Shown here: positions 4,688 through 20,066 of the stretch, in pieces
Numbering within the stretch: position 1 is the first letter of the stretch
Layout of the letters: each line of letters begins with the position of its first letter
Virus record (IMG/VR): IMGVR_UViG_3300037961_004406
Location: 29,643 to 53,951 of that record
Source: a virus
Strand: one strand, 5' to 3'
Length of the DNA stretch: 24,309 nt
Made by a program: the position numbers and the translations under genes
The notes under the pieces: model-generated
What the model saw: the letters and a program-made list of their open reading frames with translations, nothing else
The model's database searches: none
Told to the model about the DNA's origin: nothing

Positions 4688-5657
4688 GAGAAACCTCACT
4701 TGTTTTAATTCCATAAATACGTTCAAGTTTTTCGGCTTTAGTTTCTTTTGCTTTAGGTTTTAAATCATCAAGCATAGCAGAAACATTTTTTGGATTGAAA
4801 ATAGTTAATGACGTACTTTCAATTTCGCAATCATGAACAGAAATATTTACCTTTTGATTATCAGCAAGTTCTTTTACCTCATCAAAAGATGAATAATTTT
4901 TTAACGTATCTTCTACAACCTTAACCCTTTTAATTATGTTAGATTGCCATTCATCATAGCGTTGTCCTACGTTTTCTTTTGCAATCAAATAATCTCTAAA
5001 GATTGAAAATTCATCTTTATTGACTTCAAAAAATCTTGAATTGCAATAATGGGAACGCATAATTACATTCAGTTTGTAATTATCATACCACTCTTTTGAT
5101 TTATTATTCATACTTTCATAAGAACATGATGTTCCCCCAAGTTCAGAAATACAACTATCTCTTAATTCAGTATGAAATGGATTGTCTTTTTTATCACCCT
5201 GAAGCTGAAAAACATTAGGGGTTAAGCCCTTTTGTTTTAAATAATCATGGTAATAAGCTAAGGCAAATAATTCATCTCTTTTATTAGAATAATTACCTGA
5301 GCTTCCAAAAAGATTGAAATTGATATGTTCTTCATCAAAAACTTCTTTTTTATTTCCATGATAGTCTTCAGTCATTCTTCCTGTATTAAGTTTGACATGA
5401 AAACAACAATCAGGATTTACTACATCAAGGTCAAATTTTCTTTGATATTTAAGTAAGCCCTCAATGTCCTCAGTTGAGTAATTGCGTTCAATAACATTCT
5501 TCATGGTATTGTGTGCTAACTCAGTAGTATTCTTAAACACTTCTTTAGAAGAATAATAATTTTCTTTTAAAATATTATCTTCATTCTGATAGTGCTTTTC
5601 GAACACTTTAGTCGCTAGTTTTCTTTTACTAGCATTTAGTTTTACTTTTTTCGTCAT
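4680..5657 (-). CDS. Hypothetical phage protein (325 aa)
   Basis: Not recognised. It is a soluble protein with a basic N-terminus (MTKKVKLNASKRK), an aromatic- and Cys-containing middle and a Lys-rich tail. No membrane segment or catalytic motif is identifiable. The frame is open further upstream, but the start at 5657 is chosen. GGAGGA lies six bases before it, a consensus promoter sits at 5692-5720, and the extension would run through that promoter. It overlaps the zinc-finger-like gene by eight bases. Confidence 0.7.
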   Translation of the reverse strand: MTKKVKLNASKRKLATKVFEKHYQNEDNILKENYYSSKEVFKNTTELAHNTMKNVIERNYSTEDIEGLLKYQRKFDLDVVNPDCCFHVKLNTGRMTEDYHGNKKEVFDEEHINFNLFGSSGNYSNKRDELFALAYYHDYLKQKGLTPNVFQLQGDKKDNPFHTELRDSCISELGGTSCSYESMNNKSKEWYDNYKLNVIMRSHYCNSRFFEVNKDEFSIFRDYLIAKENVGQRYDEWQSNIIKRVKVVEDTLKNYSSFDEVKELADNQKVNISVHDCEIESTSLTIFNPKNVSAMLDDLKPKAKETKAEKLERIYGIKTSEVSHG

Positions 5658-8757: not shown

Positions 8758-8913
8758 ATGATAATAAGAAAAACTGAAAAAGAAGCGAGAGATGAATACA
8801 ATAATCTAAGAAATGATGATCCTACTTTTGCAGAGTGTTGGCAAGATGATGACCATGATTTTTATGAGTGGTGCTCAGGATATTTGGATTATAAACATAT
8901 TAAAAGAAAATGA
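8758..8913 (+). CDS. Small acidic protein, unknown (51 aa)
   Basis: Not recognised. It is strongly acidic in its centre (ECWQDDDHDFYEWCSGYLDY), with two Cys and two Trp. AAAAGGAG is a strong ribosome site at correct spacing. It ends in an ATGATGA overlap with the next gene. Like its neighbours, it has no visible catalytic motif. Confidence 0.65.
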   Translation: MIIRKTEKEARDEYNNLRNDDPTFAECWQDDDHDFYEWCSGYLDYKHIKRK

Positions 8914-9149
8914 TGAACGATAAAGACGTAGAAGAATACCATAAAAATATTGAAGTATTGACCAAGCAACAACAAAACTTAGTCAAAGACACTCAAAAAA
9001 ATATTCTTACAAACAAAACATTTGTAGCTTTAGAAAATTTATTCAATGTAGTTGATGTTGAAATAAAAAGATTTAATCAATCTAATATGATGAAGTCAGC
9101 TATGGAAAATGCTTACAATATTATACAAGAAAATAAGAGAAAAAAATAA
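8910..9149 (+). CDS. Hypothetical coiled-coil protein (79 aa)
   Basis: Not recognised. It is almost entirely helical, with Gln-, Lys- and Asn-rich heptads (EEYHKNIEVLTKQQQNLVKD) and hydrophobic positions suggesting an oligomer. It is coupled to the preceding gene by the overlapping start. It is the last sizeable gene before the structured RNA region. Confidence 0.6.
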   Translation: MMNDKDVEEYHKNIEVLTKQQQNLVKDTQKNILTNKTFVALENLFNVVDVEIKRFNQSNMMKSAMENAYNIIQENKRKK

Positions 9150-9185: not shown

Positions 9186-9242
9186 ATGGGGCATGACATA
9201 TTAATATTTGCAATTTTTGTAATATTAGCCCTGTTGTTATAA
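9186..9242 (+). CDS. Possible 18-residue membrane peptide
   Basis: The frame MGHDILIFAIFVILALLL is a single hydrophobic segment. It starts inside a TTTAATGG overlap with an even shorter frame. Its ribosome site is weak (GAGTTAA). An inverted repeat TAATATT/AATATTA lies within it, so it may instead be part of a structured RNA leader. Confidence 0.3.
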   Translation: MGHDILIFAIFVILALLL

Positions 9243-9250
9243 CTATGGTA

Positions 9251-9439
9251 CTTGACTAAGATTGTATCGCTAAGGAGGTTGTCAAGCGAAGTTTTGTTCC
9301 AGGATACAATATGAGAAAAAAGCCATTTAAGAATTTAGTTCCGTGAGCCGTGTATAACAGACTTATGGTTCTAATGCCCTCATGTGAGGACGCAGTGCGA
9401 TAGGGTAGGATAGGTAGGGGTACTTGTTCTACCCTTTTT
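9251..9439 (+). ncRNA. Candidate structured RNA with pseudoknot and terminal hairpin
   Basis: About 190 non-coding bases lie between the operon and the convergent genes. ATTGTATC (9261-9268) pairs with GATACAAT (9303-9310). CTTGAC (9251-9256) pairs with GTCAAG (9281-9286), crossing the first helix as in an H-type pseudoknot. Further helices are possible: GAGCC with GGTTC (9345-9371) and CCTC with GAGG near 9378-9389. The end is an intrinsic terminator. TAAGGAGGT (9271-9279), the full complement of the 16S tail, lies in the pseudoknot loop with no reading frame after it. It matches no RNA family I recognise. Confidence 0.55.
9416..9439 (+). terminator. Intrinsic terminator of the structured RNA, with alternative pairings
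   Basis: AGGGGTA (9416-9422) pairs with TACCCTT (9430-9436), followed by Ts. AGGGTAG (9402-9408) can pair instead with CTACCCT (9429-9435), and GGTAG (9413-9417) with CTACC (9429-9433). AGGG at 9402 can also pair with CCCT at 9377. Competing pairings of this kind are a feature of attenuators, but the ligand or trigger is unknown. Confidence 0.65.
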
Positions 9440-9440
9440 A

Positions 9441-9561
9441 ATTTAAGAGTTGCATTTAATCAAGACCCATGATAATTTATTTAGGAAGTAGTTTTTCATT
9501 AACTGCTCCCTTTCAATAGTTGTTTAAACATGGTGTTAGAGGCGGGAGACTGCCTCTTTCA
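9441..9561. other. Non-coding gap with two hairpins
   Basis: AGTAGTT and AACTGCT (around 9485-9507) form one hairpin. AGAGGC (9538-9543) and GCCTCT (9552-9557) form another just beyond the stop of the leftward gene at 9562. The second has only a short T-run on the plus strand, so it may be a weak terminator for transcripts arriving from either side. Confidence 0.4.
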
Positions 9562-10008
9562 TCAAATCTTAATCGGTTTATTAGTTGAGTTAAAAACAAG
9601 TTTTCTTAAATACTCTACAATTTCACGAAGTTTTTTTCTTTCTTCTTTATTCTTTTCTTCTTTTAATTTTTGATAATTGTCATTGTATTTACTCCACTTG
9701 TACTGACGATCAGTAAAAATTATTTTACCTCTTTTAATCGCTCTTAAATATTGAAGTCTTATGTTTTCAGGATCAAGGTCAGCGTAATAACAAACTTTTT
9801 GAAAATCATCAGTATTGTTTGTAATCCAATAATGAGCGTCCATTTTCTGAATTGATGATTTACGATCATTTAAATTTATTGTAGCGTCACCAAGAGCGTT
9901 ATTGATAACTGCCCTCCAAAGTTTAACCTCGTTAGGTTTATTTTGCTGAACCATTTCGGTAGCAAAATTAATGCCCATAAGTTTTAACAAGTCTTGATAA
10001 TAACTCAT
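9562..10008 (-). CDS. Conserved-looking phage protein with LDPENIR motif (148 aa)
   Basis: The pattern LWRAVINNALGDA, then AHYWITNNTDDFQKVC, then ADLDPENIRLQYLRAIKRGK resembles phage proteins with a WL-x-DF-x-VC-x-LAGLDP-x-x-V/IR core. I know no established function for them. It is a helical, basic protein that could bind DNA. It starts 41 bases inside the end of the preceding gene without a strong ribosome site. The C-terminal third is Lys- and Glu-rich coiled coil. Confidence 0.6.
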   Translation of the reverse strand: MSYYQDLLKLMGINFATEMVQQNKPNEVKLWRAVINNALGDATINLNDRKSSIQKMDAHYWITNNTDDFQKVCYYADLDPENIRLQYLRAIKRGKIIFTDRQYKWSKYNDNYQKLKEEKNKEERKKLREIVEYLRKLVFNSTNKPIKI

Positions 10009-10680: not shown

Positions 10681-10923
10681 ATGTTTGAATATTTTATTAT
10701 GCTGGGCACACTTTGTACTGCTCCTTTCAATTTACCCACTGCTATTAAATGCATAAATTTCTATGATAAACCTGCGATATACTATGAAAATAAGGAAAAA
10801 TGTGTTAATAGAGCTAAAGAATTTACCAAAGAAGTTGAAATAAGATTAAATGAAAAAAATTTATTTATTGTTGGAATTCAAATTTATTGTCAGCCTGTTA
10901 AGAAGGTTGACGTACCCACCTAA
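10681..10923 (+). CDS. Small Cys-containing protein with hydrophobic N-terminus (80 aa)
   Basis: The first 20 residues are hydrophobic with little charge (YFIMLGTLCTAP) and may be a signal or anchor. The rest has Cys residues in KCINFYDKP, KCVNRAKEF and IYCQPV, suggesting disulfides outside the cytoplasm. The layout resembles small phage proteins with a C-x-F/Y-E and C-x-x-R-A pattern of unknown function. There is no ribosome site. An extended -10-like TGATATTCT just upstream suggests a leaderless message. Confidence 0.55.
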   Translation: MFEYFIMLGTLCTAPFNLPTAIKCINFYDKPAIYYENKEKCVNRAKEFTKEVEIRLNEKNLFIVGIQIYCQPVKKVDVPT

Positions 10924-18656: not shown

Positions 18657-20066
18657 ATGAAATATATTTACAAGACAAAACCTTTTGAACATCAAAGACA
18701 AGCATTAATAAAAGGTGCTGAGTCAAATAATTTCGCATATTTTATGGAAATGGGTACAGGCAAAACAAAAGTTGCAATTGATAATGCATCTTATTTGTTC
18801 ACACAAAATAAAGTAAAAAATGTTATAGTGATTGCTCCTAATAGTGTTTACTTAAATTGGAAAAAAGAAATTGAAACACATTGTTCTGTTCAGTTTAAAA
18901 TATTAGCACATAAAATTGATAAAATGTTAGACCCACAATTTAACGATCCATTAGATTTAACTTGGTACTTATTTAATGTTGAAGCCATGAGTCATAAGTC
19001 AGGTTTAAAAAAAGTAAAAGAATTATTAACAGCAGCAAATCAAACTATGATGGTTATTGATGAGGCCACAACCATAAAAAATAGAACTGCTAAAAGAACT
19101 AAAAATATTATTGAACTTGGAAAAACTGTTGCTTTTAAAAGAATTTTGACAGGTTCACCAGTAACTAAATCACCTTTAGATTTATATAGTCAGGTTGCAT
19201 TTTTAGACAGAGATTTATTAGGGCATCAATCATTCTATACATTTAGAGCCAGGTACGCTGTCATGCATGAAATTGATATGGGAGGTAGATCAGTTTTATT
19301 ACCTAGATATTATACTAACTTAGAAGAACTAGAACAAAATTTAAAAAAATTTTCTTATAGATGTAGAAAGATAGAGTGTTTAGATTTACCTGATAAATTA
19401 TATACTCAACATTACATTAATTTAAAAGATGACCACAAAAAAGCATACGAACAATTAAAGAGGAATGCGTGGGCCGTGATTCAAAACGAAGAGGTTAGTT
19501 ATTCAAATAAATTAACTGAGATACTTAAATTACATCAGTGTGTAAATGGCCATGTTAAAACTGACGATCATAAAATAATAGAATTTGATGATCCTAAATT
19601 AGATCAATTGTTAGAAGTAATAGAAGAAAACGAAGGTAAATTTATTATATGGGCTAACTACATATATAATATAGAAAAAATTATTAATATTTTAAAGGAT
19701 AGGTATGGAAATGATTCAGTAGTTAGTGTATACGGTGCAGTAGATGCCCGACAAAGAATTAGAAATGTTAAACTCTTCGAAACTTCAGATACTGTCCGTT
19801 TTTTTGTGGGTAATCCTAGTACTGGTGGCTATGGCCTTAATCTTGTTTCTGCCTCCTATGTTGTCTATTATTCTAATTCTTATAATTTGGAAGTGCGTGA
19901 ACAAAGTGAAGACAGAGCTCACAGAATTGGGCAAGATAAAAACGTCTTGGTAATAGACTTACTTGTTAAAGACACAGTAGATGAAATGATTATATCTGCA
20001 TTAAAAAATAAAATTAAACTAAGTGCTAAAACTTTAGGGGAAGAAGCTAAAAAATGGCTTTCTTAA
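18657..20066 (+). CDS. SNF2-type superfamily 2 helicase/translocase (469 aa)
   Basis: A double-stranded DNA translocase of the SNF2/RapA type. Seen: Q-motif-like FEHQRQAL (10-17), Walker A EMGTGKT (31-37), motif Ia VIAPNSVYLNW, motif II DEAT (135-138) in place of the usual DEAH, motif III LTGSP (164-168), motif V GGYGLNL and motif VI EQSEDRAHRIGQ (415-426). Phage members are thought to help replication or remodel protein-bound DNA. The gene runs opposite to the replication operon from an 80-base divergent region. It lacks a Shine-Dalgarno, the bases before ATG being GTTTAAAC, and its -35/-10 elements are poor. Confidence 0.93.
   Translation: MKYIYKTKPFEHQRQALIKGAESNNFAYFMEMGTGKTKVAIDNASYLFTQNKVKNVIVIAPNSVYLNWKKEIETHCSVQFKILAHKIDKMLDPQFNDPLDLTWYLFNVEAMSHKSGLKKVKELLTAANQTMMVIDEATTIKNRTAKRTKNIIELGKTVAFKRILTGSPVTKSPLDLYSQVAFLDRDLLGHQSFYTFRARYAVMHEIDMGGRSVLLPRYYTNLEELEQNLKKFSYRCRKIECLDLPDKLYTQHYINLKDDHKKAYEQLKRNAWAVIQNEEVSYSNKLTEILKLHQCVNGHVKTDDHKIIEFDDPKLDQLLEVIEENEGKFIIWANYIYNIEKIINILKDRYGNDSVVSVYGAVDARQRIRNVKLFETSDTVRFFVGNPSTGGYGLNLVSASYVVYYSNSYNLEVREQSEDRAHRIGQDKNVLVIDLLVKDTVDEMIISALKNKIKLSAKTLGEEAKKWLS

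Follow-up and report, generated by a model that had tools for sequence, protein, structure and literature searches.

The DNA analysed here, called the window throughout, is a stretch of 24,309 nucleotides corresponding to bases 29643-53951 of a virus record of 53,951 bases. The DNA polymerase of this phage and its counterpart in Pelagibacter phage HTVC023P share 72% identity, which makes the phage a relative of the HTVC023P-type pelagiphages; by this kinship, its host would be of the SAR11 type. A BLASTN comparison with annotated phages gave matches at chance level only, and no description of a pelagiphage non-coding RNA was found in the literature searched, which excludes most subscription journals.

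The region of interest is bordered by small genes that run rightward, up to position 9242, and by a leftward replication operon. The final gene of this operon (9562-10008, minus strand) converges on the region and served as the anchor for finding relatives. On the other side, the last conserved gene is an ORF for a hydrophobic peptide of 18 residues (9186-9242, plus strand), MGHDILIFAIFVILALLL in the window and MWHNVLIFSLFLILAILL or MSHDLLIFSLFLALAIIL in relatives, which falls below the size of usual gene calling. It is followed by a variable slot, a structured RNA with a terminator (RNA1), a putative promoter (P2) and a second, probable small RNA (RNA2).

RNA1 and its covariation in relatives

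RNA1 (9332-9438, plus strand) folds far better than its shuffles (z -3.87, none of 200 as good). The initial annotation had placed a structured RNA at 9251-9439; this is borne out for 9332-9438 but not for 9245-9331, whose fold is no better than after shuffling (z -0.96, with 30 of 200 shuffles as good). All helices of RNA1 can form together. The outer hairpin, H1 (9335-9374; arms 9335-9347 and 9362-9374), has an interior of about 25 to about 85 nt across relatives and contains a heptamer motif, CGTGAGCCGTG, at 9342-9352. The short hairpin H2 (9378-9389) is formed by CCTC/GAGG in the window and by CCGTG/CACGG, ACCU/GGGU or ACUCAC/GUGAGU in relatives. H3 (9391-9399) is a weakly supported mini-hairpin of 3 bp, CGC/GCG in the window and CUC/GAG or ACC/GGU in relatives, misplaced in some rows by the automatic alignment. 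H4 (9402-9440), whose stem is kept in relatives, has the form of an intrinsic terminator, as the initial annotation had recognized: a stem-loop at 9402-9435 with 15 base pairs and a GGGG loop, then the U tract TTTTTAATTT. It is situated at the predicted end of a transcription unit, 3' of the rightward genes and ahead of the convergent gene. The AAUGC between H1 and H2 is invariant, and the GGG of the H4 loop is conserved while the stem changes.

Tandem copies of the heptamer, CGTGRNY (CGTGAGCCGTGATT and so on), are scattered in these phages (53 of 146 loci), mostly in intergenic positions. The window has such repeats at 9342-9352 and 19468-19478, and CGTGRNYCRTG is found twice in it against 0.02 expected from shuffles. 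A heptamer inverted repeat with a T run occurs at about 5044-5090 of locus L006.

Relatives were collected through the anchor protein: a single-sequence search gave 11 loci, and a search with an alignment gave more, of which the best 80 of 133 were taken. One of them, L003, is the same phage (99.9% identity). In all other close relatives that cover the site (64-81% protein identity), similarity to the window begins at about 9332, and about a dozen distinct relatives carry RNA1 in this same position, facing the end of the anchor gene. Folded individually, most homologues give H1, H2 and H4, and many also H3; L012, L013 and L084 favour other folds for the 5' part of RNA1.

An alignment of 12 distinct sequences, some closely related, covers the part from AAUGC to the terminator. 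Standard pairs occupy 90% of its cells, versus 80.7% in shuffles and 41-51% when the partners are slid, and 29 cells hold two-sided changes, versus 13.1 in shuffles. The covariation score is 0.374 against 0.217 for column shuffles, which ignore kinship (none of 500 as high), and ten of the 23 pairs display two-sided changes, a count made without tree correction. Further pair types are no more numerous than in shuffles (23 versus 23.6). RNAalifold draws 17 pairs, 8 of them with two-sided changes. The covariation test suggested by the initial annotation is thus positive for RNA1. Since the variable interior of H1 prevents column-by-column alignment, this hairpin was tested by swapping arms between phages: 5' arms, chosen by hand, were paired with 3' arms from the same or from other phages, kinship being ignored. 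Cognate arms of H1 gave a mean of -11.9 kcal/mol and swapped arms -6.0; the corresponding values were -6.4 and -3.1 kcal/mol for H2, and -19.3 and -14.7 kcal/mol for H4.

RNA1 has no counterpart in Rfam, nothing coming near a gathering score even at E values up to 5. This agrees with the initial annotation, which had recognized no known family, and the marine phage setting that it assumed is supported as well. A covariance model detects one true copy of RNA1 per genome, plus weak echoes of the terminator on the opposite strand, and finds it in this clade only, among the remote contigs, phage records and bacterial loci searched. No copy was present in the remote contigs, weak partial matches in L128 aside, in the searched parts of four annotated phage records, or in the searched part of HTVC027P. 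Nor did the model (R1) match any of 80 bacterial loci listed by a DNA pattern that proved too loose to be of use; for another loose pattern, most of 50 listed matches appeared by eye to be due to chance. A further scan added no members.

The variable slot upstream of RNA1

The segment that precedes RNA1 (9245-9331, plus strand) is absent from every relative except L003, the contig of the same phage. It contains all the words on which the initial annotation was built: CTTGAC (9251-9256), ATTGTATC (9261-9268), GTCAAG (9281-9286) and GATACAAT (9303-9310), arranged as in an H-type pseudoknot, with the nine-base Shine-Dalgarno-like word TAAGGAGGT (9271-9279) inside the arms. Such an arrangement is not rare. 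With a pseudoknot defined as a pair of perfect stems, each of 6 bp or more and with 14 bp or more in total, spanning no more than 70 nt, the plus strand of the window held 16 that equal or exceed this one, versus 14.2 +/- 4.7 in shuffles, so that the pseudoknot does not rise above chance. A local shuffle (101 nt) produced one in only 10 of 2000 cases; the site was, however, selected from 24 kb. The description of TAAGGAGGT as a Shine-Dalgarno sequence without a reading frame is accurate insofar as no start codon stands at a usable spacing behind its GGAGG, but the word is not part of the conserved element. It occurs once in the window, and AAGGAGG five times, counting both strands, an excess that is mild at most. 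The word can equally be codons: in frame it reads GCT AAG GAG GTT (A-K-E-V), and the 28-codon open frame around it (9260-9346, plus strand; DCIAKEVVKRSFVPGYNMRKKPFKNLVP) has no start codon near its beginning and stops inside H1.

The slot between the 18-residue ORF and RNA1 measures 89 nt in the window and almost nothing in L005; a gene of 65-70 residues fills it in L008, L022 and L063, and other genes do so in L009 and L012. It is possible, if somewhat doubtful, that 9245-9331 is likewise a decayed or short coding sequence, TAAGGAGGT being codons rather than a ribosome-binding site. Genes do occupy the slot in most relatives, and the frame ahead of RNA1 ends with LVP and the same stop codon (TGA, 9344-9346) in the window and in L063. 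However, the letters shared with L063 start only at RNA1, so that the common LVP-stop ending may simply come with RNA1. The rest of the frame is without a homologue (tblastn with the 28 residues gave no match), between it and the closest ATG upstream (9245) stands an in-frame TAA, and open frames of 28 codons are not rare; the frame is a remnant or due to chance. Such a coding origin, which concerns the 5' segment only, is compatible with the explanation of RNA1 favoured below. It is, on the other hand, highly improbable that 9251-9439 forms one small RNA or switch in which the pseudoknot offers ribosomes the anti-Shine-Dalgarno match or governs read-through, as had been proposed. The complementary words and the nine-base match exist, but the 5' part is missing from the relatives and folds like shuffled sequence, and pseudoknots of this kind occur in the window at chance frequency. 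Nothing supports a contact with ribosomes. A read-through switch is equally unsupported: none of the RNA1 helices excludes another, and, with a convergent gene next, there is no sense-oriented gene downstream to be switched.

The preQ1, SAM-II and SAM-V pseudoknot riboswitches have short crossing helices near a Shine-Dalgarno-like sequence, and in this the 5' segment resembles them. Unlike them, it has no Rfam match (E up to 5) and no gene behind it, and it is not conserved; 9251-9310 is not a conserved pseudoknot holding the Shine-Dalgarno sequence of a following gene. Since the segment is missing from all relatives but the contig of the same phage, the pseudoknot and its Shine-Dalgarno-like word lie outside the conserved RNA; they look like chance, in unrelated filler of a variable slot. 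The interval 9251-9439 joins two unrelated pieces, and 9332-9438 are the proper limits of the conserved element, a correction that separates a chance pseudoknot from a real element.

RNA1 as the probable end of the rightward operon

RNA1 probably closes the rightward operon, a set of small phage genes, as its structured 3' untranslated end with terminator. This is the simplest reading because the genes ahead of RNA1 vary while RNA1 stays, and frames end inside it (within H1 in the window, L063, L022, L009 and L012), because no conserved promoter precedes it, and because the next gene is convergent. A scan with a consensus promoter found none on the plus strand between 8802 and 9984, but it misses P2 too. 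Transcription would leave the last rightward gene, whose stop codon often sits in H1, pass H1, H2 and H3, and stop at H4 just before the convergent replication operon; RNA1 would then not be transcribed separately. Folding of the 3' end by the covarying helices would most likely make for efficient stopping and shield the mRNA end from 3' exonucleases, while P2, 3' of the terminator, would start a separate small RNA. Two observations fit this model less well: the upstream gene stops before RNA1 in L005 and L008, and three covarying hairpins exceed what a terminator needs.

With an intrinsic terminator and structured 3' UTR, RNA1 shares its place at an operon end, a G+C-rich hairpin with U's behind it, a nearby stop codon and compensatory changes in the stem. 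It differs from a plain intrinsic terminator in having H1-H3 at fixed places ahead and the invariant AAUGC between H1 and H2. RNA1 is best read as a further example of a structured 3' end with an intrinsic terminator, one without an Rfam entry. A few letters of H1 (GAGCCGT...GGTTC) recall group II intron domain V; this candidate was dropped, there being no Rfam match, and unlike domain V the interior of H1 is not conserved.

The main rival holds that RNA1 is a trans-acting phage small RNA, processed from the 3' end of the operon and acting via the exposed AAUGC and the G-rich loop of H4. Small RNAs derived from 3' UTRs, of type I or II, are known from enterobacteria, and RNA1 resembles them as a conserved, structured mRNA 3' end closing in the operon terminator. 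A small RNA of this kind would be a discrete transcript, processed or independently initiated, and would be expected to have a processing site, an Hfq site and a target. The covarying hairpins, the invariant AAUGC and the GGG retained in the terminator loop despite changes in the stem would suit such a role, but the lack of a conserved promoter does not, and a terminator plus 3' UTR already explains both position and form; we thus regard a processed small RNA as unlikely. An element acting at the DNA level is a more improbable alternative still. Here H1 would be a scattered heptamer-repeat (CGTGRNY) hairpin, mobile or bound by protein, with RNA structure secondary. The tandem motif is indeed present in 53 of 146 loci, sometimes as inverted repeats. 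Nonetheless, H2 and H4 covary without carrying it, L006 retains the H1 stem although its motif has changed, and the U tract of H4 is one-sided, as befits a rightward terminator. The 3'-end RNA described here is an unlisted covarying RNA with a defined end and a conserved promoter behind it, hence a concrete target for RNA-seq during infection.

P2, RNA2 and the short reading frames

P2 (9450-9478, plus strand) is a putative promoter, TTGCAT-17-TAATTT, with an extended -10 (TG at 9470-9471). The motif TTG-N20-TGNTA stands directly 3' of the terminator in 15 of 15 aligned sequences, in which the intervening letters differ. The predicted start point falls at RNA2 (about 9487-9558, plus strand; z -2.77, one of 200 shuffles as good), a second, hairpin-forming small RNA that P2 probably drives. 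RNA2 comprises a 5' hairpin, CTCCCTTTC, the palindrome TGTTTAAACA and a 3' hairpin; the last letters of its pyrimidine stretch are CCTTTC. Two-sided changes are seen in the 3' hairpin (-14.2 kcal/mol for cognate and -6.9 for swapped arms), and the 3' end is uncertain, because the U tract is poor.

The border of the convergent operons might accommodate a regulatory pair of RNAs, RNA1 from the operon end and RNA2 from P2, in which the pyrimidines of RNA2 would bind mRNAs of the phage or its host at their Shine-Dalgarno sequences, a proposal that we consider speculative and quite unlikely. The stretch proposed as exposed is CUCCCUUUC, with UCCUUUC or ACCUUUC in relatives, and it resembles the 3' end of 16S rRNA. 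A kissing contact of the G-rich RNA1 loop with the C-rich part of RNA2 was examined by hand and discarded, no joint change being seen. A leftward short ORF behind GAAAGGGAG, the reverse complement of the pyrimidine stretch, was also rejected: its peptides vary and L009 and L012 lack its ATG, which indicates that the hairpin is conserved and not the ORF. In L006, CTACCTTTCGT of RNA2 is, by eye, an 11-base perfect complement of the Shine-Dalgarno region ACGAAAGGTAG of a small gene that lies some 0.8 kb upstream and has the same orientation; the homologous gene of the window (8910-9149) does not have this Shine-Dalgarno sequence.

In other relatives, short ORFs occur at the place equivalent to RNA2. 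HTVC023P has one that ends in Pro-Pro-stop and is not annotated (L015, about 10690-10775, minus strand). Similar ORFs are found in L085-L090, L093-L095, L098, L101, L102, L104-L107, L112, L113, L116, L120-L122, L124, L132, L134, L135, L140 and L145, a rate that is biased, as the search itself was for Pro-Pro-stop. They comprise 12-37 codons and fall into at least six unrelated-looking types, for instance MFHIYHMIPFCLEGGDCSLPSKLKFWYPP, MHLFAYFLPRGLVNTAGDRNPRRIPP, MCSLKRLHKFIKLSFRPP and MFLILNVRRVPP, each ending at its stop codon. Their ATG lies a few bases behind the -10 box, leaving no room for a Shine-Dalgarno sequence, so that they are perhaps leaderless. The motif CCNCCNTGA is absent from all loci without a Pro-Pro-stop ORF. 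In L129, L139 and L143, and also in L137 and L146, the equivalent place has a Shine-Dalgarno sequence followed by ATG AGT TAA or by an ORF of 5 codons. This start, located in a 5' hairpin, is minigene-like and stands in place of the Pro-Pro-stop ORF.
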